Below are positions 29,399 to 45,923 of a stretch of 64,000 nucleotides of DNA, in pieces. The stretch spans positions 1 through 64,000 of the forward strand of contig JAAZOD010000026.1 in the NCBI GenBank assembly GCA_012797975.1. The letters run 5' to 3'. The position numbers and the translations under genes are program-made. The notes under the pieces are model-generated. The model was not told the DNA's origin and ran no database searches. It worked only from the letters and a program-made list of their open reading frames with translations. The first letter of the stretch is position 1, and the number at the start of each line of letters is the position of its first letter. The stretch comes from Pelolinea sp. (GTDB taxonomy: Bacteria; Chloroflexota; Anaerolineae; Anaerolineales; Anaerolineaceae).

Positions 29399-32041
29399 TC
29401 ACGCATTTTTTTGAAGCGAATCTAAAATTGTTTGCAGGAGCTGGTCTTCTTCGATGGCTGAATTGACCTTTCCATCGATCCATGCATCTGCAAGCTGTTG
29501 GATAATCTGTTTATAAAGCGGGCCAGGATTGATTCCCTGTTCGCGCAGGTCCTTTCCGGTCGTATGCGGTTTTAACTTGCTCCATTCTTCCAGATATTGA
29601 TCAAGGATCTGCAGGACACGATCATTATCGTGAAAGAAAAAGTGAACTGCGTAGAGAGTGTAATTGGGCATCCCTTTCAGAACCGCACAGATCTCACTGG
29701 GCTGCTTATCAATTAAAGTCGGAAATTGCTGGATCAGTGAATGGGTTTGTTGGATGCTTGCTTGTGTGACGGCGGGCAGTTTTAAACGCGCGCCGATCCT
29801 GCGCAGGGTTTCTTCATTATGAGACCCCAAAAGGATGCAGTAACGTGTCACAAGCTCGAGAGATGATTTGCCGATCTTTTGCGGAAGCTGCCATTGCTCG
29901 GATGGTTTTGTCTCCATAATGAATTGCAGAAGAGCAGCAGTCTTCTTTGAAAATGAAAAGTCCGGATCAATGACCTGCAGTAAACCCAACTGGTCCAAGC
30001 GCTGTAAGATGTCGACCGCCATGCGTTCCTGCAAGATCAGATCTATTTCGTGTCTGATGCGGTCACCCGATACCTGTTTTAAGAGCGGTTTGGCTTCCGT
30101 CAAAAGCTCCAGTGTGCGTTCTTCGATCTGGAATCCAAAACGCTGTTCAAAACGTACTGCCCGCAGCATGCGGGTAGGATCATCAACGAAGGAGAGGGAA
30201 TGCAGCACGCGGATGATCCCATTCTTCAGGTCATCCATCCCTCCCCAATAATCAGAAAGGTTCCCGTAATGTTTTCCGTCCAGTTGAATGGCGAGGGTAT
30301 TGATTGTGAAATCACGGCGCAGCAGATCAAGCTTGATACTGCTCAACTTCACCGTAGGTAGTGCAGTGGGGCTTTTATAGAATTCGGTGCGTGCACTGAT
30401 CAGATCGATCGATTTGGGCAAGGCATGTTTTGCTGATGGGGTGTTCGGCGATTGAATACGGACATTTTCCAGGAACCATTTTACTGTGCCAAATTGGCGA
30501 TGGCTAGTTGTTTTCCCGCCATACAATTCCGTGAGGCGGTGAGCAAGCTCAATGGCATTCCCTTCCACAACGAAATCCAGATCCAAGAGGGGGGAATGCA
30601 ACAGGATATCCCGGACCACACCCCCGACCAGGTAAACATGCATTCTCATCTCATATGCCGTGCTGGCAATGACCTTGACCAGTTCCAACAAAAGAGGGTT
30701 CAAGCTTTCTTCAAGGTTGGCTGCCAGATTCATTTTTCCATGGATGGGAGATGGAAATCCCGAATACGCTTGCAGCAGATCTGTGCGGGTGACAATGCCG
30801 ATGACTTTGCCAGTCTCTCGCTGAACTACTGGGATCTGCCCCCAGTTGGATTTTGCCATTAATTGATGCAATTCTTCCAGGGGTGTTTCAGGATAAACAT
30901 GATAATTCCCTGCTTCCATTAAACTTCGAGCCGGAAGATCCAGCTTGTGTGCCAGTGCGCGATCTACCGCCCGCCGCGTGAGCAATCCCACTATCGCATC
31001 GTTTTCAATGACTGGGAAACCCTCATAACCAAATCGTTGCATAAACTGCATAGCTTCCTGAGCTTTGATGGCCGGGTCCAGAAGTAGCGGATTCTTAGAC
31101 ATGATCTGCTTCACCGTGATGGATGGGGTGATGAACGCGTCCAAACCTTTGATGAAATCTTTTTCCAAATTGTGTAAAGTGTTTTTCAAGGGATCCGGAG
31201 TGTGAATCAACGCCGCAGCGGCGCGTGGATGGCCACCTCCGCCATATTTTTCTGCGATGATGGCAACATTGATCTGATCGCTGGTCGAACGAGCGACAAA
31301 ACGGATACCTTCTTTGGTGTGCACAAAGATGAAAAGACCATCCGGGTCATACAGGTCGCAAAGTTTATGCGCAATGCTGGATACCTCTTCTTCCAGAAAT
31401 TCTGCTTCGGCATGCGAGATCATGATATGCTGTTTTTTCAACTCCATGATCTGCTGGTTCTTGATCAGTTCATCCAGCACCTTCCGTTGCCCTTCTGAAA
31501 GGGAAAAGTTCAAATATTCTCCGGCGATCTTCAGACTTGCTCCTTGTTCCAGCAGAAAAGCCACTGCTTGCGCATCACGTGGAGTGGTGCTGGCATACGT
31601 CAGGGAGCCGGTATCTTCATAGATCCCCAGCAGCAGCAACGTGGCGTGGATAATGGACAGACTTCCATTATGTTCCATTAACTGTTCCACAAAGTATGTG
31701 GCACAGGCGCCACTGCTGATGGCATGGAAATCCCAGCTCGAATTAAAGTCTTCTTTCTTTTTGTGATGATCGATCGCACAGACTTGTGTATTCTGGGAGA
31801 TCCCTTTCAAGGTGATCATGGATTGCGTATCTACCAGTGTAATCGAGCGGATATCCTGTTTGGGAAGCGCTTGGAGAAGGATAAAGGGCAACTCGGAGCA
31901 ATACGTGTTATAGAATTGCTGTACGTTCCGGTTGAGGGTGGTTGGCAAAAGTGGGTAGGCATGTTCGCTGAGCAGATACGCTCCCAGGATGGAAGCGAAG
32001 CCGTCAAAATCAGTCTGCTCATGGGTCATGATGATATCCAT
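29399..32041 (-). CDS. DHH phosphoesterase-CBS-CBS-tRNA nucleotidyltransferase fusion
   Basis: An 880-residue multidomain protein. Residues 1-300 are a DHH/DHHA1 phosphoesterase (THEQTDFDGFAS, VDTQS, AIDHHKK, GGGGHPRAAAA), as in NrnA/RecJ-like nanoRNases. About 315-435 are two CBS domains (ITVKQIMSKNPLL, ARSLMEAGNYHVYPETPL). About 470-870 are a class II CCA-adding or poly(A) polymerase-like nucleotidyltransferase: GGVVRD, DLDFVVEG as the catalytic DxD, RRDFTINTLAI and DDPTRMLRAVRFEQRFG. The same fusion is known in other bacteria, in some of which tRNA CC- and A-adding activities are split. Whether this enzyme adds CCA, CC or A cannot be told by reading. No strong SD precedes the ATG. Confidence 0.93.
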   Translation of the reverse strand: MDIIMTHEQTDFDGFASILGAYLLSEHAYPLLPTTLNRNVQQFYNTYCSELPFILLQALPKQDIRSITLVDTQSMITLKGISQNTQVCAIDHHKKKEDFNSSWDFHAISSGACATYFVEQLMEHNGSLSIIHATLLLLGIYEDTGSLTYASTTPRDAQAVAFLLEQGASLKIAGEYLNFSLSEGQRKVLDELIKNQQIMELKKQHIMISHAEAEFLEEEVSSIAHKLCDLYDPDGLFIFVHTKEGIRFVARSTSDQINVAIIAEKYGGGGHPRAAAALIHTPDPLKNTLHNLEKDFIKGLDAFITPSITVKQIMSKNPLLLDPAIKAQEAMQFMQRFGYEGFPVIENDAIVGLLTRRAVDRALAHKLDLPARSLMEAGNYHVYPETPLEELHQLMAKSNWGQIPVVQRETGKVIGIVTRTDLLQAYSGFPSPIHGKMNLAANLEESLNPLLLELVKVIASTAYEMRMHVYLVGGVVRDILLHSPLLDLDFVVEGNAIELAHRLTELYGGKTTSHRQFGTVKWFLENVRIQSPNTPSAKHALPKSIDLISARTEFYKSPTALPTVKLSSIKLDLLRRDFTINTLAIQLDGKHYGNLSDYWGGMDDLKNGIIRVLHSLSFVDDPTRMLRAVRFEQRFGFQIEERTLELLTEAKPLLKQVSGDRIRHEIDLILQERMAVDILQRLDQLGLLQVIDPDFSFSKKTAALLQFIMETKPSEQWQLPQKIGKSSLELVTRYCILLGSHNEETLRRIGARLKLPAVTQASIQQTHSLIQQFPTLIDKQPSEICAVLKGMPNYTLYAVHFFFHDNDRVLQILDQYLEEWSKLKPHTTGKDLREQGINPGPLYKQIIQQLADAWIDGKVNSAIEEDQLLQTILDSLQKNA

Positions 32042-32119: not shown

Positions 32120-32875
32120 ATGAAGGCATTGAATGAGGAAGAACGCGAACGCTATCAGCGCCATTTGTGCATCCCGGAGCTGGGCGAAGCGGGGCAGTTG
32201 AAAATCAAAGCCGGATCAGTTCTGGTGGTGGGTGCTGGCGGACTGGGATCGGCAGTGTTGCTGTATCTGGCTGCTGCCGGCGTTGGGAGACTGGGAATTG
32301 TCGATTCGGATGTGGTGGAACTTTCCAATTTGCAACGTCAGATTCTGTATGACACGGAGCATCTGGGAATAGTGAAGACCGAATTGGCATTCCAGCGTCT
32401 GCATGCCCTGAATCCACATGTTGAACTGAAACTGTACCAACAACGTTTTGAAAAACAAAATGCCTTGAAACTTATGCAGGGTTATGCGATCGTCATGGAT
32501 GGGACCGATAATTTTGAAACGCGTTTTCTCATCAACGATCTGTGTGTGAAATCCGGTAAACCGTATATCTATGGAGCGATCAATCAGTTTCATGGTCAGG
32601 TGAGCGTATTCGATGCAAAAAAGGGAGCATGCTTCCGCTGCGTGTATCCTGCCATGCCGTCCGAAGAGATCATTGCGATGAATAAAGGGGTGGGTGTGGT
32701 AGGGGCGGTTCCGGGGATTATTGGATCAATCGAAGCGCTGGAATGCATTAAGATCCTGACCGGCATAGGGGACCCACTGTACGGGCGGATGATCCTGCTG
32801 GATGGACAAACCATGGAGTTTCGAGAAATTCAAATTCGCAAGCAGACAAATTGCCCGATCTGTGCTGCTCATTGA
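32120..32875 (+). CDS. ThiF/MoeB/HesA-family E1-like adenylyltransferase
   Basis: Activates the C-terminal glycine of a ubiquitin-like sulfur carrier (ThiS or MoaD type) by adenylation. The 251-residue protein has the nucleotide loop GAGGLGS (about 39-45), DxDxVELSNLQRQILY, DGTDNFETRFLIND and two zinc CxxC pairs (CFRC near 170 and CPIC near the end). The segment between the first zinc pair and GVVGAVPG, where many members have an SCAExG cysteine, contains no cysteine here. No carrier protein or molybdopterin/thiamine gene is adjacent, so the pathway is undetermined. Seven bases before the deacetylase. Confidence 0.88.
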   Translation: MKALNEEERERYQRHLCIPELGEAGQLKIKAGSVLVVGAGGLGSAVLLYLAAAGVGRLGIVDSDVVELSNLQRQILYDTEHLGIVKTELAFQRLHALNPHVELKLYQQRFEKQNALKLMQGYAIVMDGTDNFETRFLINDLCVKSGKPYIYGAINQFHGQVSVFDAKKGACFRCVYPAMPSEEIIAMNKGVGVVGAVPGIIGSIEALECIKILTGIGDPLYGRMILLDGQTMEFREIQIRKQTNCPICAAH

Positions 32876-32882
32876 GGAAACT

Positions 32883-33731
32883 ATGACAGAAAAAAAGAAA
32901 ATTCTTGTTGTTACTGCACATCCAGATGACGAGACTTTTGGCATGGGTGGCACCATTGCCAAATGTCAGGCAGAAGGGGCTGAAATTGCCGTTCTTTGCG
33001 CCACCAAGGGAGAGGTCGGAGAAGCGGACGCGGAGTTGCTGGCTCACTTTAAATCCATGGCTGATCTGCGCGTATCTGAAATGCGCTGTGCCATGCAGGT
33101 GCTCGGGGTGAAAGAACTTCACTTTCTGGGGTATCGCGATTCCGGCATGCCGGGCAGTCCCGAAAACTCCCATCCCCAGGCATTTGTTCAGGCGTCACTG
33201 GAGAAAACCGGAATGGATATTGCTTACTATCTGCGTAAATTTAGACCCTCTGTTGTGCTTACTTCCGATCCCATGGGTGGGTATGGGCATCCCGACCATA
33301 TCCATGCTTACCGCTCCGTTGTGAGAGCGCTGGAACTGGCAGCCGATGGGGAGATCCTGATTGAAGGGCTCCAGCCCTTTCATCCTGCGGGGGTCTACTT
33401 GAATACCTTTCCCCGCAAATTCATGCGGCTGGTGGTGAAATTAATGCCGCTGTTTGGAAAAGATCCGACCAAATTTGGGAAAAATGGCGATATTAATTTT
33501 GTTGAGATCATGCAAACCGATTTTCCCATTCATGTGCGCATTCATTATGGAAAATATGCAGTCATACGGGAGAAAGCATCTGCTTGTTATCGTAGTCAGG
33601 GAGGCGACCAGCAGAGTGGATTCTTTATCGCCTGGTTGGAGCGGTTATTCTCGTCCAATGAAGCGTACATGCAGTATTTTCCTGAACCGCAAAGTCGGCG
33701 TGTCCGGAAGGATTTTTTTGACGGGATTTAA
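32883..33731 (+). CDS. PIG-L/LmbE-family N-acetyl-sugar deacetylase
   Basis: A zinc-dependent deacetylase family acting on GlcNAc-containing conjugates (for example mycothiol, bacillithiol and PIG-L substrates). The 282-residue protein has the zinc motif AHPDDE (about 12-17) and the third ligand region GYGHPDH near residue 140. The frame is open back to 32802, but ATG 32883 follows GAGG and starts at MTEKKKILVV. Genetic context does not reveal the substrate. Co-transcribed with the ThiF-like gene; ends 6 bp from the convergent HD gene. Confidence 0.9.
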   Translation: MTEKKKILVVTAHPDDETFGMGGTIAKCQAEGAEIAVLCATKGEVGEADAELLAHFKSMADLRVSEMRCAMQVLGVKELHFLGYRDSGMPGSPENSHPQAFVQASLEKTGMDIAYYLRKFRPSVVLTSDPMGGYGHPDHIHAYRSVVRALELAADGEILIEGLQPFHPAGVYLNTFPRKFMRLVVKLMPLFGKDPTKFGKNGDINFVEIMQTDFPIHVRIHYGKYAVIREKASACYRSQGGDQQSGFFIAWLERLFSSNEAYMQYFPEPQSRRVRKDFFDGI

Positions 33732-33737
33732 TTTTGC

Positions 33738-34364
33738 TTACTCATTTTTGGCAAAAAGAATTCTGCGTGCAGTACATTCCGCAAGCAGGTCACTTTTTTG
33801 GGCGGCAGATCGCAGTTCTTCGTTTCCGTTTTTTTGTTTTGATCTGCAATTGAAGATAATCCTATCTTTTTGAATGGATAAGCTTACCTGATCAATGATA
33901 TTTTTATGCCCATAATCCAGCCCGTCCGCTACGCGCAAAATGGCAGCCAGGTTGGAAACCATTTTCTTCTCATCCTCGTTCAATGCAGCATAATGGCTGT
34001 GGCCATTGTTCGGAAGCGTCTTGCGGTGGTACCTGGCGATCGATCCGATGATCAGCCGGTCTTTGGATGAGAAATGTAACAGCGGTGTGGAAAGGATGAT
34101 GTGCAAAGCGGTTTTGTGATGTCCCCTGGTCCCTTCAGTTTGAATCCCGATGTCATGTAAAAAAGCAGCACACCAAAGATAAAATTGCTCCTGCTTTCCA
34201 AAGCGAAAGAAGCTTTCAAACTGATTGAAAATTTGAAGCGCCAGTTTGACCACCTGGCGAGTGTGGTTTTCGTCATACTGGCAGGTTTGTGCCAAGCGAA
34301 GCACCTCATCGGCATGTTCTTGCTGTTCGGGTGCAAATTGAAATCTATCGGTCGATTCAGTCAT
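33738..34364 (-). CDS. HD-domain protein related to the Ppx/GppA C-terminal domain
   Basis: A 208-residue metal-dependent phosphohydrolase-type HD domain: HTRQVVKLALQIF, AAFLHDIG (about 67-74), GHHKTALHII and ILRVADGLDYGH. The order and the DGLDYGH motif match the C-terminal HD-like domain of exopolyphosphatase/GppA proteins, but the N-terminal actin-like catalytic domain is absent. Last gene of a five-gene minus-strand cluster; overlaps the phosphoesterase by 8 bp. Its company (CHAD, phosphoesterase, Pst/PhoU nearby) suggests polyphosphate or nucleotide signalling. Confidence 0.85.
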   Translation of the reverse strand: MTESTDRFQFAPEQQEHADEVLRLAQTCQYDENHTRQVVKLALQIFNQFESFFRFGKQEQFYLWCAAFLHDIGIQTEGTRGHHKTALHIILSTPLLHFSSKDRLIIGSIARYHRKTLPNNGHSHYAALNEDEKKMVSNLAAILRVADGLDYGHKNIIDQVSLSIQKDRIIFNCRSKQKNGNEELRSAAQKSDLLAECTARRILFAKNE

Positions 34365-35142
34365 CCTTCATTTTGGAAAGATCGGCAAGCGCCCTTTCCA
34401 AATTTACTCCATTCTCAAACATATAAGAAAACTCGACCGGTAGATTATAAACCTCATTTGCATGGATGACCCTGGCGACATTATAGGTGACCCGGAACTG
34501 AGTTACACGGATGGGATCTCCAAGCGAAAGGATCGCATACGATGCGCGGGGATCGCCATCATCCTGCCTGCCAACACTGCCTGGGTTAATAAAAATTGTA
34601 TTTTCCAGTTGTTCTTTCCAAAAGAAATGAGAATTTCCGGTGACGATGAAATCACTTTTTGCATGGCGTTGGTTGAACAATAATTCCACCCGTGAGGTAT
34701 TGGGTCCTAAATGGGCTTTCGGATTTCTGGGTGATCCGTGGGTAAGGTAGAGCATTTTTATTCCTACACCGATCTTTGAAAATTCTGGCAGGGCGGATAA
34801 GAACTCAAAATTATGCCTGCTCAACTGTTCGTAAGCCCATCGGAGGGTGAAAACGCGCAAATAATGTTTTTTCAGTTCAAAGACATTTCTCTTGGTGGGG
34901 AATTCAAGCACTTTTTGGTCAAAATCTCCTTTCACACTGTGAAATCTGTGGATACGGATAAAATCTAGACATTCATTGGGAAATGGACCAAATCCGACGG
35001 TATCACCGGCGTTTAGAAAGAGCTGTGCGCCGTGCTCGATGGCATGCTGGCAGACCGCTTCAAGGGCTGGTAAGTTTCCATGAATATCACTGAGCAAAGC
35101 AATGGTTTGGATAGATAGGTTTTCCTTTTTATTGTGATGCAT
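34357..35142 (-). CDS. Calcineurin-like metallophosphoesterase, YfcE/MJ0936-like, altered metal site
   Basis: A 261-residue protein with SDIHGN (D19, H21), GDTVGFGP (D47), THGS (H135) and NPGSVG near 186, the layout of the YfcE/MJ0936 group. Two usual metal-site motifs are changed. The GN(H/C)D motif reads KGDFD, with Asp73 for Asn, and the GHTH motif reads GNSH, with Asn170 for the first His. Activity or metal preference may therefore differ. Overlaps CHAD by 14 bp and HD by 8 bp, so the three are almost certainly co-translated. Confidence 0.86.
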   Translation of the reverse strand: MHHNKKENLSIQTIALLSDIHGNLPALEAVCQHAIEHGAQLFLNAGDTVGFGPFPNECLDFIRIHRFHSVKGDFDQKVLEFPTKRNVFELKKHYLRVFTLRWAYEQLSRHNFEFLSALPEFSKIGVGIKMLYLTHGSPRNPKAHLGPNTSRVELLFNQRHAKSDFIVTGNSHFFWKEQLENTIFINPGSVGRQDDGDPRASYAILSLGDPIRVTQFRVTYNVARVIHANEVYNLPVEFSYMFENGVNLERALADLSKMKDD

Positions 35143-36154
35143 ATTCCTTCGTTTCTTTTCCCCCTGTCGGTTGTATTGTATGATGATCGTTGTTTGCAGT
35201 GGAAATGGTTGCTTGCAAGATCAACTCTCGTAATTTTAACCAAATTTCAGCAGATTTCCATATTTGCCAATCTTTCATGAACTCTGCATAGATGCGATCC
35301 CGTTCAGCTTGACGATTCTCTGTAATGTAAGTGAATCCTGGAACCAGCCGTTTTATTGCGGAAGGGTGCCCATAATATTTCAAGGTACGCTGTTTTTCCG
35401 ATTCCAGGAAGGCCGGAACAAAGGCGATCCACACATCGCAATCGTGGATCAATCCCAATTTTTGCTGAACGGTTTTCATGATGTTGAGGTAATCCTCCAG
35501 CTTCCCCTGATACAGCGGTAAAAAGACTTCCAGGGTATAGCGCAAACGCTTGGCAGCGATACGCATTAAATGCAGTTCATGTACATCTTCCGGATGGTGG
35601 ATAAACACTTCATAGTAGAGGAATTGGTCCAGGGTGGTGTAAATGGAATGAAATGCGAGCTGGAACAGCTCTGCAGGGCAATCTTTCGGATGTGGTTCTT
35701 GCAAGATTGCCTGCATGGTACTCTGGATGGCCAGAATATCCTCGTTTTTTAGCAAAGCATCGGTATGTTTTTCAACACCTGCTTCTTTCTTCTTTCGCTT
35801 TTGAACCAGCCGCAGGTGAAGCCGCCGAATTCCGGGGCGTACTTGCCTGTCAGTTACCAGGGCAAGCTGATGTTCAAGAAATTCGATCTGTACATCCAGA
35901 TCGCGGGTTTTCCCAAAGGCCCTTGTAATGGAGCGGATGGTATCTTCCCAGCTTTTTACTTTCTGTTTGGGAAAATATTTGTTGAAAATAGATAGAGACG
36001 TGCGAATTCTGCGGGTGGCCACCCGCAGGTCATGGATATCTTCGCTTACATGCCGGGTCTGTATCTTTTCAAGAATTTGTAGAAGATTTTGTGTATTGGT
36101 CAGGATATTCTCGGATGCGTATTGCTGAATGCGTATATCCTTATTCCCCTTCAT
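35129..36154 (-). CDS. CHAD-domain protein
   Basis: A 341-residue helical protein with two half-repeats of the conserved histidine alpha-helical domain: HDLRVATRRIRTSL (about 42-55) and HLMRIAAKRLRYTLEVF (about 197-213). CHAD domains bind polyphosphate through basic surfaces and often localise to polyphosphate granules. No CYTH triphosphate tunnel domain is fused, unlike many CHAD proteins. Cotranscribed with the TMK-like pair upstream and the phosphoesterase downstream. Confidence 0.9.
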   Translation of the reverse strand: MKGNKDIRIQQYASENILTNTQNLLQILEKIQTRHVSEDIHDLRVATRRIRTSLSIFNKYFPKQKVKSWEDTIRSITRAFGKTRDLDVQIEFLEHQLALVTDRQVRPGIRRLHLRLVQKRKKKEAGVEKHTDALLKNEDILAIQSTMQAILQEPHPKDCPAELFQLAFHSIYTTLDQFLYYEVFIHHPEDVHELHLMRIAAKRLRYTLEVFLPLYQGKLEDYLNIMKTVQQKLGLIHDCDVWIAFVPAFLESEKQRTLKYYGHPSAIKRLVPGFTYITENRQAERDRIYAEFMKDWQIWKSAEIWLKLRELILQATISTANNDHHTIQPTGGKETKEYASQ

Positions 36155-36165
36155 AAAAATGTTCT

Positions 36166-36876
36166 CTACTCCTTCTTCTTGGTCTTTTCAACTGGCTTGA
36201 TCAGTTCTTCAACCAGTTTTTTTACTTCTTCAAAGATCTCTTTTGCCGAGCGGTTGGCATCCACCACCTTAAATTGGTATTCTTCTGCCATCAGGTCAAA
36301 CTGCTCGATCATACTGGTTTGATATTGCACGAAACTGTCATATAGATTTTGCTCTTTGATGATGTCCATGCCCGATTCCCAGAAATTGAATCCACGTCCG
36401 TGGATGATGCGGGTTACCAGGGTGGGAATATCGGCCTTGAGATAAATCACCAGGTCGGGAACGAGCGCAAAACCATAGACTTGGCGTGTCCATTGCGGAT
36501 CAAGACCGCGCACCATGTCGCGGGCGATGATGGAATAGAAATAACGATCAGAAAGGACATGAAACCCTGCTCTTAATGCAGGGATGATCTGATTCTCAAG
36601 GCGGTCCGCGAAATCTGTGGCATAGAACAGACTGAGCGTGGTGGGGGTGAGAGTGTTCCCTTCTTTGGCTTTATCCAATCCTGGCTGGGTGAGGGGTGAG
36701 CGGCGCAGCCCGGTATCGGAAACTGCATAATTATTCTTCTCAAGCCATTTTTTTAATAAGGCCACCTGTGTTGACCTTCCGACCCCGTCCGTACCCTCTA
36801 GAACAATCAGTTTCCCTTTTAAGGATTCTTTGTTGAGATAGGGAAAGCCGCTGCCGTAGAATTTCATTTTCGCCAT
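36166..36876 (-). CDS. Thymidylate-kinase-like protein with Arg in Walker A
   Basis: A 236-residue member of the TMK-like P-loop kinases: LSDRYFYS (DRY motif), ATDFADRLENQIIPAL and a C-terminal charged tail. The P-loop reads GTDGVGRST, so the Walker A lysine is Arg34 (codon AGG); the usual form is GKST. The REPGGT loop typical of dTMP kinases is also absent (DTGLRRSPL). Either activity is weak or lost, or the protein acts as partner of its neighbour. ATG at 36876 follows AGGAG. It is a tandem paralogue of the next gene, 3 bp apart. Confidence 0.88.
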   Translation of the reverse strand: MAKMKFYGSGFPYLNKESLKGKLIVLEGTDGVGRSTQVALLKKWLEKNNYAVSDTGLRRSPLTQPGLDKAKEGNTLTPTTLSLFYATDFADRLENQIIPALRAGFHVLSDRYFYSIIARDMVRGLDPQWTRQVYGFALVPDLVIYLKADIPTLVTRIIHGRGFNFWESGMDIIKEQNLYDSFVQYQTSMIEQFDLMAEEYQFKVVDANRSAKEIFEEVKKLVEELIKPVEKTKKKE

Positions 36877-36879
36877 GCT

Positions 36880-37611
36880 TTACTCCTGTGCGGCTTCAGC
36901 ATTCCGCTGCTTTTTTTCATAGTTTTTTGCGGATAAGGTTGGGTTCGGCAATCCTTCCCAACCTCTCAAGATGGAATTGACCAAACTGCGGATCTCTTTT
37001 TGCTGATTTTCGACGGGTTTTTTGGCGTTGATGACCTTAAAGTTGAATTCCCCGATCATCTTTTCATATTCATCCAGCACCCGGCTCTGGAAAAGGCGGA
37101 AACTGGTGACCTTTTTATCCGAGAGTCCCAGATCCATACCGGCTTCGTAATATTTAATCTTTGCCCGTGAAGCAAGGATGCGTTCCACCGCCGTATCAAT
37201 ATCCACTTGAAAATATAGAGCCAGATCGGGTTGAATGGCGAATGAATAAAGATTGCGTACCCAATTACGATCCACGCCGCGAGCCACATCGCGTGCAAAA
37301 GCTGTAAAGGCGTAGCGATCGGCGATCACGATCACCCCTGCTTTTAAGAGGGGAAGCAGATGGTTCTCCCAGCGGTCGGCAAAATCCGTTGCCTGGATCA
37401 GACTGAATGTTGTGGGAGTGAAGAGGCGTTCTTTTTTTCCCAATTTGGTGGTGCTTTTTACCAGTGGTGATGAATTCCATTCGCTGAAATAAACCGACTT
37501 CCCTTTATCTTTCAGCCATTTATAGATAAGATCGATCTGTGTCGATTTTCCACTTCCGTCAATCCCTTCTACGATGATCAACTTCCCTTGGGTTGGATTC
37601 GGTTTTAACAT
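36880..37611 (-). CDS. Thymidylate-kinase-like protein with intact Walker A
   Basis: A 243-residue paralogue of the adjacent gene with an intact P-loop, GIDGSGKST (K22), plus IADRYAFT and ATDFADRWENHLLPLL. Like its neighbour it lacks the REPGGT loop (SEWNSSPL instead), so dTMP as the substrate is not certain. It is the first gene of the cluster TMK-TMK-CHAD-phosphoesterase-HD. The 162-bp gap upstream to phoU holds no gene. A weak minus-strand -10 (TACAAT, 37649-37644) without a good -35 is the only promoter candidate. Confidence 0.88.
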   Translation of the reverse strand: MLKPNPTQGKLIIVEGIDGSGKSTQIDLIYKWLKDKGKSVYFSEWNSSPLVKSTTKLGKKERLFTPTTFSLIQATDFADRWENHLLPLLKAGVIVIADRYAFTAFARDVARGVDRNWVRNLYSFAIQPDLALYFQVDIDTAVERILASRAKIKYYEAGMDLGLSDKKVTSFRLFQSRVLDEYEKMIGEFNFKVINAKKPVENQQKEIRSLVNSILRGWEGLPNPTLSAKNYEKKQRNAEAAQE

Positions 37612-37773: not shown

Positions 37774-38460
37774 TCAGGAATCGGAAACATCTCCCTCGTC
37801 ATCATTCGAACTCATTTCCATTAATTCACCAGTGGTGATGAAGATGGTGCGTTCACAAATATTGGTGACCCGGTCAGCAAAACGTTCCAAATTATGGGCA
37901 ATCCACAGGATGTCATTGGCTTCATCCATTTGGGATGGGTTGGCAATGGCGTATTGGATGGTTTCGTGATAGATCTTGGTATAGAGATCGTCAACGATAT
38001 CGTCTTCCTGCGGAATGGCGGCTGCCTGGTTGGGATTTTGTTTCAAAAAGGCGTCCAGACCGCGATGAAGCATACTGACGCTTTGTTCGGCCATTTTTTG
38101 AAAATCGCGTACCGGGATGGCGATATCGGATTTTCCGATCTTGATATTGATCTTGGCGATACCTTTGGCATAATCGGCCATTCTCTCCAGCTCGTTGACG
38201 ACCAGCAGCATGGCTGCCAGCAAACGCAGATCACGGGCAAAGGGCTGCTGGGTGGCCAGCAGGATAATGATGGCATTTTCCAGAGCAAAGCGCTTTTCAT
38301 TGATGACCGTATCTTCTTCGTAAATACGTTTGGCTTCCTTCAAATCGCGGGTCTTCAACGTGTTGGTGGCGTCCAAAACCGCTTGTTCGACCATGCTGCC
38401 CAACAGATAGATCTCATCTTGTATTTGAGTTAACTTTGAATCCAATGTTTCACGCGGCAT
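37774..38460 (-). CDS. phoU: Phosphate transport regulator PhoU
   Basis: A 228-residue protein with two three-helix PhoU repeats, each with the metal-site pattern ExxxxD: NELERMADYAKGIAK (about 89-103) and HNLERFADRVTNICERT (about 190-206). PhoU connects the Pst transporter to the PhoR kinase and restrains phosphate uptake. Two ATG codons are adjacent (38463 and 38460); GAGG spacing favours the second. It lies 18 bp downstream of pstB, the common pst-phoU order. Confidence 0.95.
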   Translation of the reverse strand: MPRETLDSKLTQIQDEIYLLGSMVEQAVLDATNTLKTRDLKEAKRIYEEDTVINEKRFALENAIIILLATQQPFARDLRLLAAMLLVVNELERMADYAKGIAKINIKIGKSDIAIPVRDFQKMAEQSVSMLHRGLDAFLKQNPNQAAAIPQEDDIVDDLYTKIYHETIQYAIANPSQMDEANDILWIAHNLERFADRVTNICERTIFITTGELMEMSSNDDEGDVSDS

Positions 38461-38478
38461 CATTCACCTCTATGTAAT

Positions 38479-39264
38479 CTATCCAAAACGCCCGGAAATA
38501 TAATCTTCGGTGATCTTTTCACGAGGGTTGGTAAAGACCTGAGTGGTTTTCCCGTATTCAATGATATACCCGGAGCGATCAGGATACATATTGAATACCA
38601 TGGTGTAGTCAGAAGCCCGGGCGGCTTGCTGCATGTTATGAGTCACTATGACAATTGTATATTCTTTTTTAAGATTTTGGATTAATTCCTCAATTTTCAA
38701 GGTGGCGATGGGATCAAGCGCCGAAGCGGGTTCATCCATCAGAATGACTTGAGGTTCTACCGCCAGCGCGCGCGCAATGCATAAGCGTTGTTGTTGACCA
38801 CCCGAGAGTGCCAGCCCTGATTTATTGAGGTTATCCTTCACTTCCTCCCAAAGGGCGGCTTGAACAAGACTTTTTTCAACGATATCGACCAGCACTGCTT
38901 TATTCTTCAGGCCGTGTGCCCTTGGGCCGTATGCCACATTATCAAAAATGGATTTTGGGAAGGGGTTCGGACGCTGGAAAACCATGCCCACTTGTTTGCG
39001 CAATTCCACCACATCCTGCGTAAAGATATTCTCATTGTCCAAGAAGATATTTCCGGTGGTTCGCACCGAAGGGATCAGTTCATTCATGCGATTGATGGAG
39101 CGCAGGAAGGTGCTTTTTCCGCAGCCCGAAGGTCCAATGATGGAGGTGATGGCGTGTTCGGGAATATCGACATTAATATCCTTCAATGCCTGGAAATCTC
39201 CATAAAAGAGATTGAAGTCCTTGGCAATGATCTTTGAATTTCCGTTTAGTTTCGATGATCGCAT
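38479..39264 (-). CDS. pstB: Phosphate ABC transporter ATP-binding protein
   Basis: A 261-residue ABC ATPase with Walker [11 protein letters not shown]-loop [20 protein letters not shown], signature LSGGQQQR, Walker [14 protein letters not shown] and H-loop [15 protein letters not shown]. The sequence NPFP and the RxSDY region are typical PstB. Energises phosphate import with PstCA. GGAAGC serves as a close SD; 5 bp after pstA. Confidence 0.97.
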
Positions 39265-39269
39265 GCTTC

Positions 39270-40205
39270 CTACTTTCCACTCAAGCGCTTTTGAAAATAT
39301 TTTGATGAAAGATTGATTGCCAAATTCAGGATCATGATGATGATGATCAAAATGGCAGAGGTACCCATGGCTTTATCAAAAGCCCTGGTTTCTGTGGCCA
39401 ACATATAAACATGCAGAGCCAGAGTTCTCCCTGAAGACATCAGATTCTGAGGAAGGCGGTAGCTTCCACCAAGTGTAACCCAGAAAATGGCGGTCTCCGA
39501 TATGATTCTACCAATACTTAACACAATTCCAGTAACGATTCCTGGAATTGCGGCTGGAAGCACAACCCCTGTGACCGTCTGCCACTTGGTGGCACCCAAC
39601 CCTAACGACCCCTCCCGATACGATTCAGGAACCGCCAGCAGGGCTTCTTCGGTCGTGCGGATAATGACGGGCAAGATCAGACAGGCGCCGCTTAATCCCG
39701 CTGATAACAATGAAAATCCCAGTTTCATATACGAAACAAAAATTGCAAAACCAAACAATCCAAAGATAATGGAAGGCACACCTGCCAGAATTTCCACACC
39801 GGTGCGGGCGGTCTTGATCAGCCAGCGGATGAACTTACTGCGTTGCTGTGATTCACTGGCATATTCAATGAAATAAATGGCAGCGCCGATGCCTAAAGGA
39901 GCAGCAACGGCAATGGTAAAAATGACCAGATAAACGGTGGTGACGATGGTGGTGGAAATTCCACCTTCTCCGTCAAACCCGCCAGCCGGGCGGGTGGTCA
40001 GGAATTCAAGATTGATGGCAGGGAGACCTTTCACAAACACATATCCGATGATCCAGATCAAGATTGCCATGGCGGCGAATCCCATCAACCATAGGAAAGT
40101 AAACGCTAAACTTTGTGAAAATTTGCGCCGTTTGAGGTTGGAAGATCGTGCAGACTTTACTCCGCTCCTATTGATTTTTTCCTGGCGAATGAGTGAAGGA
40201 TTCAT
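39270..40205 (-). CDS. pstA: Phosphate ABC transporter permease PstA
   Basis: A 311-residue membrane protein with about six hydrophobic segments and an N-terminal basic stretch. The EAA-like coupling loop is [24 protein letters not shown]-type ([16 protein letters not shown]). [17 protein letters not shown] is diagnostic for Pst permeases. Its start overlaps the pstC stop by 4 bp (ATGA). Confidence 0.95.
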
Positions 40206-41569
40206 GAGTTTTTCTGGCCTTTCATGATGCGATTAGCGAGCCGGTTGATGAACAGGAGGAAGAGGAATAACAAGACGCCGGTAAAGAACAGGGCGGAACG
40301 ATGTGCACCGGCCGCATAGTTGATCTCCACGGCAATATTGCCGGTGAGAGTACGGGCAGTCGAAAAAATGACTGATAAGGGATTCTCATTGACCGGGCTG
40401 GGAATGGCGATGGAGTTGCCAATGACCATGATGAGCGCCATGGTCTCACCCAGGGCTCGGCTGATTCCCAAGATCACCGCTGCAATAATGCCCGAATTGG
40501 CAGCGGGCAGAACCACATCTTTGATGGTCTGCCAGTGTGTGGCGCCCAACGCATACGATGCTTCACGGTAACTGTCGGGCACAGCACGGATGGCATCTTC
40601 GGTGATATTGGTGATGGTGGGGAGGATCATGATTGAAAGAATAATGGATGCATTCAAGATGCCAAAGCCGGTTGTATTTCCTTCAACCGGGATCTGGCGA
40701 ATGAGGGGCGCGATCACCACCATTCCAAACAAACCATATACTACCGAAGGTATGCCGGAAAGCAGTTCAATGGCAGTGCGGAAAATATTACGGATAACAT
40801 CGGGTGCGATCTCAGCTAATAGAATTGCTGTTCCAAAGGATAGAGGTATTCCAATAAGAATGGCCCCCAGTGTGCTGTAAATGGAGCCGACGATCATGGG
40901 AACTAACCCATATTGGCCTTTACCATCGCCGCTAGCGGTTCCCGGGCGCCAAATGGTGTCGGTGAGCAATTCTTTCAACCCTATTTCGGAGATAGCGAGT
41001 TTTGATTCTTGAAAGGTGAAGAGAAAGATGAAAAGGACGATCAAGATTGAACTGAGGGCGGCACCGAACAGGAAATTTTTAACCGTTCGGTTAAAAATGT
41101 GCCTTTGCTTTGGGGTTTCATGGAACGGCCCATCTGCTTTATAGAGAATGTAAAAGAGGATGCCCGGCACCCCAACGTACAAGAAGGTTTTTAAAAGATA
41201 GATCCCAAGATACTTGAGGATATCTTGAACTGAAAGGACCTGTTTGCCTGCAAAAACGACACTTGAAAATTGAAAGATCTGGTTGATCAGGATGACCAGA
41301 CAGGCCAGGATCAAAACGGCAAGCAGACTGGTACGTGCCCAATTTTGTTGGGTGTAGAAGCCTCGGGCGAGGAAAAAGAAAGCAAAACCAAGGATTACCC
41401 CGCTGCCCAGGGCAATTCCACCTTGAACGGGCAGGTGGATCATTCCACGAAATGCCAAAATTCCCATTAGGAGGGATGCAATACATAACATAGCAGAAAA
41501 TAAAGCCAAAAAAACCACAAGAAACGGTTTGTGATAAAACAAAGCTTGAAATTTATTTTTGAGTCCCAT
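40202..41569 (-). CDS. pstC: Phosphate ABC transporter permease PstC with extra N-terminal membrane domain
   Basis: A 455-residue protein; ordinary PstC is near 300. Residues from about 165 onward are a normal PstC with ELLSGIPSVVYGLFGMVV and DSYREASYALGATHWQT coupling loop. Residues 1-150 add about four hydrophobic segments not explained by the permease. An upstream GTG (41599) lies inside a hairpin; the ATG at 41569, after CAGGTAAAA, is preferred. The extra domain could sense or couple phosphate to PhoR/PhoU, but that is inference. Confidence 0.93.
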   Translation of the reverse strand: MGLKNKFQALFYHKPFLVVFLALFSAMLCIASLLMGILAFRGMIHLPVQGGIALGSGVILGFAFFFLARGFYTQQNWARTSLLAVLILACLVILINQIFQFSSVVFAGKQVLSVQDILKYLGIYLLKTFLYVGVPGILFYILYKADGPFHETPKQRHIFNRTVKNFLFGAALSSILIVLFIFLFTFQESKLAISEIGLKELLTDTIWRPGTASGDGKGQYGLVPMIVGSIYSTLGAILIGIPLSFGTAILLAEIAPDVIRNIFRTAIELLSGIPSVVYGLFGMVVIAPLIRQIPVEGNTTGFGILNASIILSIMILPTITNITEDAIRAVPDSYREASYALGATHWQTIKDVVLPAANSGIIAAVILGISRALGETMALIMVIGNSIAIPSPVNENPLSVIFSTARTLTGNIAVEINYAAGAHRSALFFTGVLLFLFLLFINRLANRIMKGQKNS

Positions 41570-41586
41570 TTTTACCTGAGAAACCC

Positions 41587-41620
41587 GAAGATGGAGCACA
41601 GTTCTATGTGCCCCATCTTC
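41587..41620 (-). repeat. Long intercistronic hairpin between pstS and pstC
   Basis: GAAGATGG-x-GCACA pairs with TGTGC-x-CCATCTTC: 13 pairs with one mismatch and a 6-nt loop. No U-run follows, so it is more likely a 3'-stability or processing hairpin protecting pstS mRNA than an intrinsic terminator. Confidence 0.7.
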
Positions 41621-41637
41621 ATTGGAACCATTGAACC

Positions 41638-42549
41638 TTATTTCACGGTGATGTAATCTTGGGCGACGATTTCCTGCCCGGCATCCGAGAGGATGAAGTC
41701 AATGAATGCTTTGGCAAGGCCCTGTGCATCACCATTGGTGAGCAAGTTCAAAGGGCGGAAGATGCTGTAAGTGCCATTCTTGACATTTTCCACGGTTGGG
41801 GCAACAGTATCGATTGCAACGCTTTTTATGGCATCACTGAGATAACCGAAGGAGAGATATCCGATGGTATTGGGGGTGCTGGAAATTACTGTGGAAACTT
41901 GGCCGTTGGACTGCTGCAGAAGTGCGCTTTCCACGATGGGTGTCTCAACGGTTTCGCCGTTTGCATCTTTATAGTTCATAACAAGGTCCTGGAAGGCAGT
42001 ACGTGTGCCAGAACCCTCTTCGCGGGAAACAACCACGATGGGTGCATCCGGTCCACCCACTTCGGAGAAGTTGGTGATCTCACCGGAGAAGATGCCGCGC
42101 ACCTGTTCGATGGAAAGGGTGGGGATATCCAAACCGGGATTCACTACGATCGCGATTCCATCATAGGCAATTTTATAGACTTTCAAGTTGGGGTAGGTTT
42201 CCAGTTCGCTGGATTTCAGATCACGGGAGGCAGTGCCAATATCCACTGTTTCGTCTCCGGCAGAGGTGATGCCAACGCTGGTGCCGCCACCTTGGATCTC
42301 GATGACAACATCTGGATTGGCTTCCATGAAGGATTCGGCCAGCACTTCAGCCAGGGGTTGCACGGTTGTGGAACCGGCAAGCTGCAGTGTCCCGGAAAGC
42401 GGTTCTGCAGTGGGGGCTGCTTCTTCTGCAGTCGCAGCGGCTTCTTCAGCCGTGGGTACAACTTCTTCGGTTGCAGCAGTGCTGCATGCCCCCAGCAGAA
42501 GGGCGCCAACCAGGATGAAACTTAACAAACCTAAATATTTACGAAACAT
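41638..42549 (-). CDS. pstS: Phosphate-binding lipoprotein PstS
   Basis: A 303-residue extracellular phosphate-binding protein anchored by a lipid. A signal peptide leads to the lipobox LLGAC (Cys22), then an Ala/Glu/Thr-rich linker (about 24-50) with repeated TAEEAA units. The PBP fold shows LAGSTTVQPL, GGGTSVGI, ASRDLK and EGSGTRTAF, the phosphate-contact sequences. It is the first gene of pstSCAB-phoU and is preceded by Pho-box-like repeats. Confidence 0.96.
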   Translation of the reverse strand: MFRKYLGLLSFILVGALLLGACSTAATEEVVPTAEEAAATAEEAAPTAEPLSGTLQLAGSTTVQPLAEVLAESFMEANPDVVIEIQGGGTSVGITSAGDETVDIGTASRDLKSSELETYPNLKVYKIAYDGIAIVVNPGLDIPTLSIEQVRGIFSGEITNFSEVGGPDAPIVVVSREEGSGTRTAFQDLVMNYKDANGETVETPIVESALLQQSNGQVSTVISSTPNTIGYLSFGYLSDAIKSVAIDTVAPTVENVKNGTYSIFRPLNLLTNGDAQGLAKAFIDFILSDAGQEIVAQDYITVK

Positions 42550-42581
42550 TTTTCTTTTCTCCTTTTTCTTTTCTAAGCAGA

Positions 42582-42636
42582 ATGATACGAAACCGCTTTT
42601 AACAAGAAGTAAGAGAAAGGTTAAGGTTTAGTTAAG
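42582..42636 (-). promoter_or_regulatory. Pho box array and -10 of the pst operon
   Basis: Read on the minus strand, four TTA-centred repeats lie at 42636-42593: two identical CTTAAC units, then TCTTAC and GTTAAA, starting 11, 12 and 10 nt apart. Eleven-nucleotide direct repeats with a TTAA core are the classic PhoB/PhoP operator layout. A -10-like TATCAT (42587-42582) follows 5 bp downstream, with the last repeat in the -35 place. PhoB control is inferred from this and the adjacent phoB. Confidence 0.7.
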
Positions 42637-42647
42637 GAAATTGCGTA

Positions 42648-44018
42648 TTACTGCCGGATGGGGATGGAAAATGAAAAGATGCTGCCCTTGTTCACAGTGC
42701 TTTCAACCCAAATTTTACCCTCATGGGCTTCTACCAGATGACGGGCAATCGATAATCCTAGCCCCGTTCCGCTCTGTGAACGGGAGCGATCGGTTTTATA
42801 AAATCTCTCAAAAATACGGTCGATGTCTTTGGGGTGAATGCCTATACCGGTATCCTGTACAGAAAAAATGATCCGATCCCCTTTTTGTGCTGCTGAAATA
42901 TGCACTTTACCACCTGGAGGAGTAAATTTGATGGCATTGTGAATGAGATTGATCAATACCTGCTCCAATCGTTCTTGGTCGATCAGCACCTCGGGCAAGT
43001 TGGGGACACAATCGTAAGTGAATTCCAGGCCGGCTCTTTCGGCTTGAACCTGCATGCGGTTGGCAGCATCCGCCAGCAAGATACTAGGAGCAATCGATTT
43101 CTTTTGCAAGGGAACCAGGCCTGATTCAATGCGAGAAAGCTCCAGCAGTTCCTGCACTAACTGGGTGAGATTGTCGATTTCCTTTTCCATCTGCGCCAGA
43201 AAACGTTTTTGGGCGGGTGGGTCCTCCATGGCACCATCGCTTAGGGTCTCTGTGATCAACTTCAGCGAGGTGAGGGGAGTGCGCAATTCGTGCGAAACAT
43301 TGCTGACGAAATCGCGCCGCACGATCTCGAGCTGGTGCAGGCGGGTAATATCCTGAAAAAGGATGAGGATGTTCCCTTCTGTGGCGGGTTCCAATGGCGT
43401 GGCGATACATTGCAGGTAGTTCCGCTCTGGGCTCGTTTCGATCTGCATGGTCTGCTGTGTGTTTTTTTCCTGACAGGTTTGCCATAGCTCTTGAACTCGA
43501 TAATGGCGGATGGTTTCAATCAGCGGTTGGCCACTGATGGCGTTTTCGGGGATGTTGAACATGCGTTTGGCAGCTTGATTTAAAATGCGGACGATCCCAT
43601 GTTGGTCTACGATGCAAATGCCATCGTTCAAGTTTTCCAAAATGCTGGCAAGATAGCGCTGCTGTGAGGTGAGATCGGCGATCGCAGCGTCAGAGCTGGC
43701 AAACGTCTTTAGAACGGTGCTGGTCAGGGCACCGATCTCATCCGACCGATTCATATACTTTTCCAGATCCGGTTTCTTTCCATTTTTTGACAGCAGAAAT
43801 TGGCGTATTTGTTTCAGTGGTTTTTGAATCACCCAGGAAACAAAGAATGACAGAGCGGCTTCCGCCAACAACAAAAAAATCCATTGCGCATACGCAGTGC
43901 GAAATAATTCAAGAAAGGGAAGATTGGTCAAGGCATTCCGAGAAAAGAAGAACACGATTAAAAAGGTGAGAAAAAGAAAGCTAAGGTAGATCTGCCAGAA
44001 AAGAGAAAGCATAAGCAT
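42648..44018 (-). CDS. phoR: Phosphate-regulon sensor histidine kinase PhoR
   Basis: About 456 residues. Two membrane segments (about 5-27 and 43-65) enclose only a short outer loop, so it probably senses through Pst/PhoU rather than an external ligand. A HAMP-like linker, a PAS domain (about 120-230, [16 protein letters not shown]), the phosphoacceptor H in [11 protein letters not shown] and an ATPase domain ([28 protein letters not shown]) follow. The start overlaps the phoB stop (TGATG); a GTG at 44021 is an alternative. It ends 98 bp from pstS, which has its own promoter. Confidence 0.93.
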
Positions 44019-44719
44019 CACCCGTCAAAACGATACCCCGCACTGCGCACTGTGATAATTCGCTGTGGGTCGGCAGGATCAATCTCGATTTTTTCACGCA
44101 GCCAGCGCACATGCACGTCCACTGTGCGGCTGTCGCCGAAGTAATCCCATCCCCATACCTGTTCCAGGATCTTTTCGCGACTGAGCACATGCCCTTTGTT
44201 TTCTGCAAAATACAGCAGCAGATCATACTCTTTGGGTTTTAATTCCAGAATGGTATCTGCGAGTTTTACCTCCCGCCGTTCCTGATCGATGACTAAATTG
44301 GCAAAGCGATATTCCATTTTTTGTGCAGTTTGTGTTTGCAGACTTTCCTGAATGATATGAGCGCGCCGTAGCAATGCCTTGACGCGTGCGATCAGCTCAC
44401 GCATGCTGAATGGTTTGGTCAGGTAATCATCTGCACCCATTTCCAGGCCGACCACGCGATCGATCTCATCATCGCGGGCGGTTAACATTAAAATGGGAAT
44501 AGTCTGTTCTTTGCGAATAATACGACAGACCTCAAAACCGTCCATGCCCGGCAGCATGATATCCAGCAGGATGAGATCTGGATTTTCTTTTTTCGACATC
44601 TCCACGGCAGTAGCGCCATCTGCAGCGGTAATGACCTGGTATCCTTGATGGTTGAGGTTGTATTGCAGTGTTTCTTGTAAGGTACGATCATCTTCCACAA
44701 CCAGGATTTTTTCAGCCAT
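44018..44719 (-). CDS. phoB: Phosphate-regulon response regulator PhoB
   Basis: A 233-residue OmpR/PhoB-type regulator: receiver domain with acidic pocket DD10-11 and phosphorylated D53, KPF at about 103, then a winged helix ([32 protein letters not shown]). It likely binds the repeats upstream of pstS. Its start overlaps the glycosyltransferase stop by 8 bp and there is no separate promoter, so phoBR is expressed with the polysaccharide genes. Confidence 0.94.
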
Positions 44720-45923
44720 TCTTCTTTACCACCTTTCGAAATACTTCCAGCAACAGACTGGCGGTTTGCTGCCGGTTGAAGTACTGTTCCACATATACTC
44801 TACCACGCTGCCCCATTTCTTTGCATTGTTTTGGATCATCATGTAAAATACGGATGGCTTGAGCGATGGCAGTGGCGTTGCCGGGTTGAGCGAAGATGCC
44901 GCAACGAGCTTCTTCCACCACCTTTCGAATGACTCCATCGATCACCAGTACAATGGCTTTTCCGGCAGCCATATAATCGAATACCTTGTTGGGATAAGTC
45001 GTTTTGTACATCTCGATCGGTTTCAGAATGGCAATGCAGCAATCAGCGGCCGCCATGGCATGTCCGATCTCTTTTTTCTCAATGGGCGGCAGGAAGGTAA
45101 GATTCTGTAGACCTTTTTGTTCAGCCAGATCCATCAATACGGGTTTTTCCTTGCCATCCCCGATAAAAACAAAATGAATATCCTGCATCTGTTTCAGTTG
45201 GTCCGCGGCTTCGATGACAACGGGCAGATCATTGGACATGCCGTGCGCCCCGGTGTAGAGAACCAGGAATTTATTTCGCCACCGATGTTGAGCGCGGAAA
45301 TCATTTCCTGACTCACCGGTGGGGAACATGGTGGTATCCACGCCGTTGGGAACCAAAAAAACCGATTTCGCTCCCCGCTGCCGCACGTGATCAATATAGC
45401 CGGGCGAGTTCACCACCAGCGCATCAGCATGGCGGTAAAGGAATTTTTCAAGCCCTTCCGAAAGACGGATAAGCGGTTTATTTTTCAAAACACCCACCGC
45501 CACAGCAAACGACGGCCACAGGTCGCGAACTTCAAATACGAACGGCACCCCTTTCAGGCGCGCTACCAGCCAGGCGGTGATCCCTTGAAAAATGGGTGGG
45601 GAGGTGCCCCAAACCACATCCACTTTGTGCATGCGCATGGCTCTGAAAAAAGAAGAATTCATGAACGAGAGGAAGCTGATGATTCGATGAAAGAAGCTGC
45701 GGTGCAGCGCGGGATAGGTATAGGTGCGGAAGATGGTGATACCATCTTCTCGCACAACCTTTTTCTTTTCTGCATCGGGCTTTCCGGTCAGGTAACTGAT
45801 GGGGCTGGCAATGATGGTGACCTGATGGCCCTGCTGGGCCAAAGCACGTGCCAATTCATGATGGCGGGTCCCGCCGGGTTCGTCGATGGCAGCAAAGGCC
45901 TGGTGGATGAGCAGAATGTGCAT
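44712..45923 (-). CDS. GT4-family glycosyltransferase (WbuB-like)
   Basis: A 403-residue GT-B glycosyltransferase. The N-terminal domain has [20 protein letters not shown], typical of WbuB-like enzymes of surface polysaccharide pathways. The C-terminal donor-binding domain has VLYTGAHG and the [20 protein letters not shown] region, with the E of the EX7E motif not obvious in the usual form. Substrate unknown. It lies 9 bp downstream of the heparinase-like gene and overlaps phoB. Confidence 0.9.

Follow-up and report, generated by a model that had tools for sequence, protein, structure and literature searches.

The presence of ppk1 or ppk2 is the usual criterion for polyphosphate synthesis in a bacterium, and PPK1 (PF02503) is usually regarded as the polyphosphate synthase. 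PPK2 (PF03976) has a P-loop kinase fold that resembles thymidylate kinase (TMK) (PMC4748334). A distinct PPK-type enzyme of Sulfolobus is credited to Hofmann et al. in two papers (PMC13318637; PMC11677633), which refer to a 2024 preprint on an "archaeal family 3 polyphosphate kinase" and to a 2026 article (J Biol Chem 302:111283). The available part of another paper describes a CHAD cluster of Sulfolobales that contains PPX and a dTMP kinase gene, the latter being given no polyphosphate role there (PMC10892726). The same gene combination is met in the locus considered here, a five-gene cluster in a 64,000-nucleotide stretch of Pelolinea sp. DNA (Chloroflexota, Anaerolineaceae; contig JAAZOD010000026.1, positions 1 to 64,000), hereafter the window. 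The cluster is formed by two paralogous TMK-like kinases, TMK-A and TMK-B, together with a CHAD-domain protein, a metallophosphoesterase (MPE) and a stand-alone HD protein. Judging from sequence, TMK-A and TMK-B are quite probably the two subunits of a TMK-like P-loop polyphosphate kinase that replaces PPK1. The pair is regarded as a candidate for this activity because of its linkage to polyphosphate genes and its mutual exclusion with PPK1. No bacterial TMK-like polyphosphate kinase was found in the literature searched.

The crenarchaeal family was reported from Sulfolobus, where orthologues of the pair directly follow PPX (order PPX-TMK-A-TMK-B in locus L060 of Sulfolobus sp. UBA167); S. acidocaldarius gives a profile match for PPX and none for PPK1 or PPK2. 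The window is unlike this setting in being bacterial, in the position of the pair behind pst-phoU, and in having CHAD, MPE and the stand-alone HD protein in place of a full PPX. The work of Hofmann et al. reportedly concerns TMK-like genes beside ppx, and the pair is probably a bacterial, Pho-linked form of this family. The preliminary description of the window had called the system undescribed, which is probably too strong, given that such a family has been described in Crenarchaeota and that the orthologues in Sulfolobus lie beside PPX. With PPK2 the pair shares the fold and, as proposed here, the polyphosphate substrate; in contrast to PPK2, neither subunit matches PF03976 at E<=1, which rules out a divergent PPK2, and the genome has a separate PPK2. 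The role proposed for the pair is equivalent to that of PPK1, to which it is unrelated in sequence family.

The closest solved relative of both window subunits is ST1543 of Sulfolobus tokodaii (PDB 2PLR, 4NZY, 4RZX, 5H70; bound TMP is mentioned in none of the entry titles). The best PDB match of both, 2PLR, scores 196 bits with TMK-A (48% identity) and 146 bits with TMK-B, and the next-best TMK in the PDB scores 54 and 46 bits, respectively. The AF2 models of TMK-A and TMK-B (pLDDT 90.7 and 89.9) lead to the same protein: ST1543 is the best Foldseek match of the TMK-A model (E 8e-21), and the structure comparison of TMK-B agrees with it. 2PLR shares 65% identity with the TMK-A that lies next to PPX in the Sulfolobus locus L060 and 27% with the canonical TMK of that genome. 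In a tree of 100 proteins 2PLR and TMK-A of L060 stand together (support 100/98) within the A group, and TMK-B of L060, which has a long branch, is placed in the B clade. The gene order of L060 and the tree show that the window pair is orthologous to the TMK-like genes that adjoin PPX in Sulfolobus.

The distribution of the pair was assessed by a scan of 84,980 genomes, one per species of bacteria and archaea, with an alignment that had 2PLR as its first sequence; the best 80 loci among the matches listed were examined, 1.09 Mb of sequence in all. These loci come from Thermoproteota, Nitrososphaerota, Thermoplasmata, Methanoliparum, Acidobacteriota, Verrucomicrobiota, Planctomycetota, Nitrospirota, Chloroflexota, Myxococcota, Omnitrophota, Gastranaerophilales and others, spanning archaea and more than 10 bacterial phyla, so an oddity of one family is ruled out. 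Both kinase genes are present in 80/80 of them. TMK-A precedes TMK-B in 98 of the 99 mapped loci, most commonly with a 4-bp overlap. The sole reversed order was found in a Phycisphaerae locus (L116:4458-8726), which carries a single Ppx-CHAD fusion gene between the kinases.

The two subunits differ consistently in the P-loop. The Walker-A lysine is kept in TMK-A of all 48 representatives, as are the catalytic residues (48/48), and it is replaced by arginine in TMK-B of 42 out of 47. This replacement suggests that the P-loop of TMK-B serves for binding rather than catalysis. TMK-B forms one clade in the tree (100/98), and TMK-A forms one group except for the A sequences of gut Gastranaerophilales/Clostridia, which lie nearer to B; long branches (L060_B, L151) make finer placement unsafe. 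The five TMK-B rows with lysine belong to this gut clade (L067, L075, L076, L095, L098, L110, L113, L114, L126 and L135), whose fetched flanks contain no PPX, CHAD or PPK2. Three TMK-B matches (G005:C288:4429-5076, G009:C82:35442-36137, G036:C16:43651-44301) have one or two stop codons in the aligned stretch, probably because the alignment overruns the gene end. Lone TMK-like genes of the wider family, with no partner detected, were seen at G273:C16:58086, G318:C13:75733 and G342:C35:6788; two of these three genomes have PPK1.

The fetched flanks of the best 80 loci contain PPX in 37 cases, CHAD in 29 and PPK2 in 3, with at least one of them in 47. With CHAD or PPX encoded about once per genome, well under one such match is estimated to arise by chance. 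The genes can form a single run, as in L070 (Anaerolineales), where PPK2-PPX-TMK-A-TMK-B-CHAD point in one direction, and in L058, where PPK2-PPX-TMK-A-TMK-B stand beside an HD-CHAD fusion and pst-phoU. Within the family of the window genome (16 loci), phoU lies directly upstream of TMK-A in 14/16 and CHAD downstream in 15/16, so that the linkage exceeds chance. HD is found in 11 of these loci and MPE in 6, which makes MPE the loosest member of the cluster. The linkage of the window genes is conserved among same-family loci, and that of the kinase pair to polyphosphate genes across phyla. The suggestion that the cluster is built around polyphosphate is strongly supported by the neighbouring PPX, CHAD, PPK2 and phoU genes across phyla, together with the exclusion of PPK1. 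It had been worded as polyphosphate handling or signalling; the data favour handling and give no specific support to signalling.

The exclusion of PPK1 was examined in 151 Chloroflexota genomes (not counting G172, whose single match was weak). The pair is present in 30 of them, PPK1 in 70 and both in 5 (p=4e-4). Among the CHAD-containing genomes, PPK1 or the pair is present in 82/84, namely PPK1 alone in 59, the pair alone in 18 and both together in 5, and 2 lack both (Fisher 6e-12); 54 of the 67 CHAD-less genomes have neither. It weakens the case that shared ancestry inflates these p-values at the genome level, and safer evidence is given by counting each CHAD-containing family once (p=6e-5, tallied by hand) and by a second phylum, that of the acidobacterial genome with locus L069, where an independent set of 149 genomes has the pair in 27, PPK1 in 69 and both in 2 (p=3e-6). 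The pair shows no association with PPX alone in the Chloroflexota sample (p=1), as PPX accompanies PPK1 as well. PPK1 was not found in the pair, in the 98%-complete genome to which the window belongs, or in four congeners. The earlier remark that the window lacks a PPK is correct in that neither PPK1 nor PPK2 lies there, PPK2 being located ~45 kb past the window end (C8:108509-109168); it overlooks that the kinase pair itself is the best candidate for the "missing" enzyme.

The dTMP kinase of the cell is neither TMK-A nor TMK-B, since a canonical tmk is present on another contig (C5:15863-16429), with a PF02223 score of 183 bits vs 86 for TMK-A and 72 for TMK-B. A separate canonical tmk also occurs in pair-bearing genomes from Sulfolobus, Nitrosopumilaceae, Acidobacteria and Anaerolineae. 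Canonical TMKs form a clade of their own apart from the pair (97/89, in a tree with long branches). The alignment shows that in both subunits the base-contact residues of canonical TMKs are changed: the Arg of the AAR motif is replaced by Phe, and AYQ by ARD, with a nearly invariant Arg thereby added near the acceptor site. We take these motifs to be the base-recognition residues of canonical TMKs. Two more weak Thymidylate_kin matches are found in the same genome at C5:42479-43000 and 45102-45563 (L004, L005).

Several observations weigh against a polyphosphate kinase role of the pair. PPX, CHAD and PPK2 are all missing from the fetched flank in 33 of the best 80 loci (some flanks are short). 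TMK-A scores as dTMP kinase above the NCBIfam cut-off (TIGR00041, 94.6 vs 83.25; TMK-B reaches 77.6), and ST1543 was published and deposited as thymidylate kinase. In addition, PPK2, which can itself make or use polyphosphate, is present in most pair-containing Chloroflexota genomes (20/30 vs 44/121 of the others, p=0.004). The TMK fold, the TIGR00041 match of TMK-A, this association and the adjoining PPK2 genes in L058, L070, L093 and L137 would also suit an auxiliary nucleotide kinase (for dTMP, NMP or NDP) that works with PPK2, feeding or draining nucleotides and leaving polyphosphate untouched. We consider this unlikely: a nucleotide kinase would not be expected to exclude PPK1, the presumed base-contact residues are replaced, and S. 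acidocaldarius has a match for PPX without PPK1 or PPK2. Moreover, eight pair-containing Chloroflexota genomes have neither PPK1 nor PPK2, and three of these eight (family f40) have PPX and CHAD adjoining the pair. Just as improbable is a pair that mainly consumes polyphosphate (to ATP or other NTPs) as a PPK2-like energy buffer, with PPK2 as the producer of the polymer. The frequency of PPK2 in pair-containing genomes would agree with such a division; however, the pair takes the place of PPK1, usually called the synthase, in CHAD-containing genomes, and several genomes with the pair have no PPK2 at all. The view of the two genes as ordinary and superfluous dTMP kinases, located in the pho region by accident, has the database names, the ST1543 literature and the PDB titles on its side; it is very improbable and in effect ruled out by the separate canonical tmk in every genome checked, the separate clade in the tree, the two-gene architecture with its altered Walker A in TMK-B, and the linkage to polyphosphate genes across phyla.

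The polyphosphate kinase reading could be pictured as follows. TMK-A would bind ATP/ADP via its intact P-loop and add phosphate to the end of a polyphosphate chain or take it off. TMK-B, which probably arose by an ancient duplication, would associate with TMK-A in the manner usual for TMK subunits, and its arginine P-loop might hold phosphate or polyphosphate, or regulate, instead of hydrolysing ATP. CHAD would bind the product and tether the enzyme to granules, and the probable task of the HD protein, seen as a detached domain III of Ppx, and of MPE would be to shorten polyphosphate or remove related nucleotides. The PPK2 encoded outside the cluster could draw on the polyphosphate store to remake nucleotides, and the position behind pst-phoU would join the handling of the polymer with phosphate uptake under a presumed common Pho regulation. 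A wider proposal is about equally likely to be right or wrong: that a heteromeric TMK-fold enzyme with one normal and one arginine P-loop subunit serves as the principal polyphosphate kinase in many PPK1-less bacterial and archaeal lineages, is commonly mislabelled as thymidylate kinase, and has been joined to pst-phoU in Anaerolineae, coupling phosphate storage and uptake there.

Should the pair prove to be a polyphosphate kinase, the supposed absence of the main enzyme from many genomes would be a misreading, for instance in the CHAD-containing Chloroflexota with the pair and no PPK1 (18/84 in the sample). A large set of "dTMP kinase" annotations would then be wrong and PDB 2PLR would be due for re-examination. 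The pair would also offer for study an enzyme of two subunits in which a P-loop arginine occurs naturally, and the pair-only genomes would provide a clean test.

The features of the locus are listed in Table 1.

Table 1. Genes of the five-gene cluster and of the adjoining phosphate-uptake region (positions in the window).
Feature	Position	Strand	Basis
TMK-A, TMK-like P-loop kinase	36880..37611	-	Pfam PF02223 Thymidylate_kin 2.5e-24; intact Walker A GIDGSGKST
TMK-B, TMK-A paralogue	36166..36876	-	PF02223 4.5e-20; Walker A Lys to Arg (GTDGVGRST)
CHAD-domain protein	35129..36154	-	PF05235 2.2e-43; 149 bits vs cut-off 25.6
YfcE-type metallophosphoesterase (MPE), metal-site motifs altered	34357..35142	-	PF12850 Metallophos_2 2.2e-19
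Stand-alone HD protein, homologous to Ppx/GppA domain III	33738..34364	-	PF21447 Ppx-GppA_III 1.6e-18
PhoU, directly upstream of TMK-A	37774..38463	-	PF01895 3.6e-37
pstB-pstA-pstC-pstS-phoR-phoB	38479..44719	-	ORFs; order conserved in relatives

The ORF map and the Pfam matches agree with the preliminary description as to the five genes on one strand (33738-37611), packed with overlaps of 8 bp (HD/MPE) and 14 bp (MPE/CHAD). The remaining gaps are 3 bp between TMK-A and TMK-B, 11 bp between TMK-B and CHAD, and 162 bp between PhoU and TMK-A. The cluster lies, as had been noted, next to phoU-pst-phoR-phoB (37774-44719), directly downstream of it on the same strand. A promoter and terminator scan gave matches no commoner than in shuffled sequences, and no terminator stands out between PhoU and TMK-A.

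The best PDB matches of the CHAD protein are 3e0s and the CHAD-domain structures 6qv7 and 6qv5, and its CHAD match is the only one in the genome. CHAD domains are known polyphosphate binders (PMC6537752), and polyphosphate binding and granule targeting are presumed for this protein. The HD protein matches domain III of Ppx/GppA only, with the exopolyphosphatase 8jgo (residues 348-482) as its best PDB match. The metal ligands of the HD site (H34, H70-D71, H82, H113 and D150) are conserved. Neither a full-length Ppx-GppA nor the catalytic PF02541 domain was found in the genome, so the HD protein cannot be a normal PPX. The metallophosphoesterase is indeed atypical, as was first remarked: its metal site reads GDFD and GNSH, in contrast to GN.D and GHSH in more distant members, a change seen in this genus and some relatives, while other relatives keep the motifs. 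The roles given above to HD and MPE are guesses.

Two further genes were noticed in the window, at lower positions than the cluster. An 880-residue protein (29399-32041) combines DHH/DHHA1 and two CBS domains with a poly(A) polymerase/CCA-adding head. The gene at 32802-33731 encodes a PIG-L family deacetylase, which resembles MshB/Mca (mycothiol) yet scores under their cut-offs, and adjoins a ThiF-family gene.

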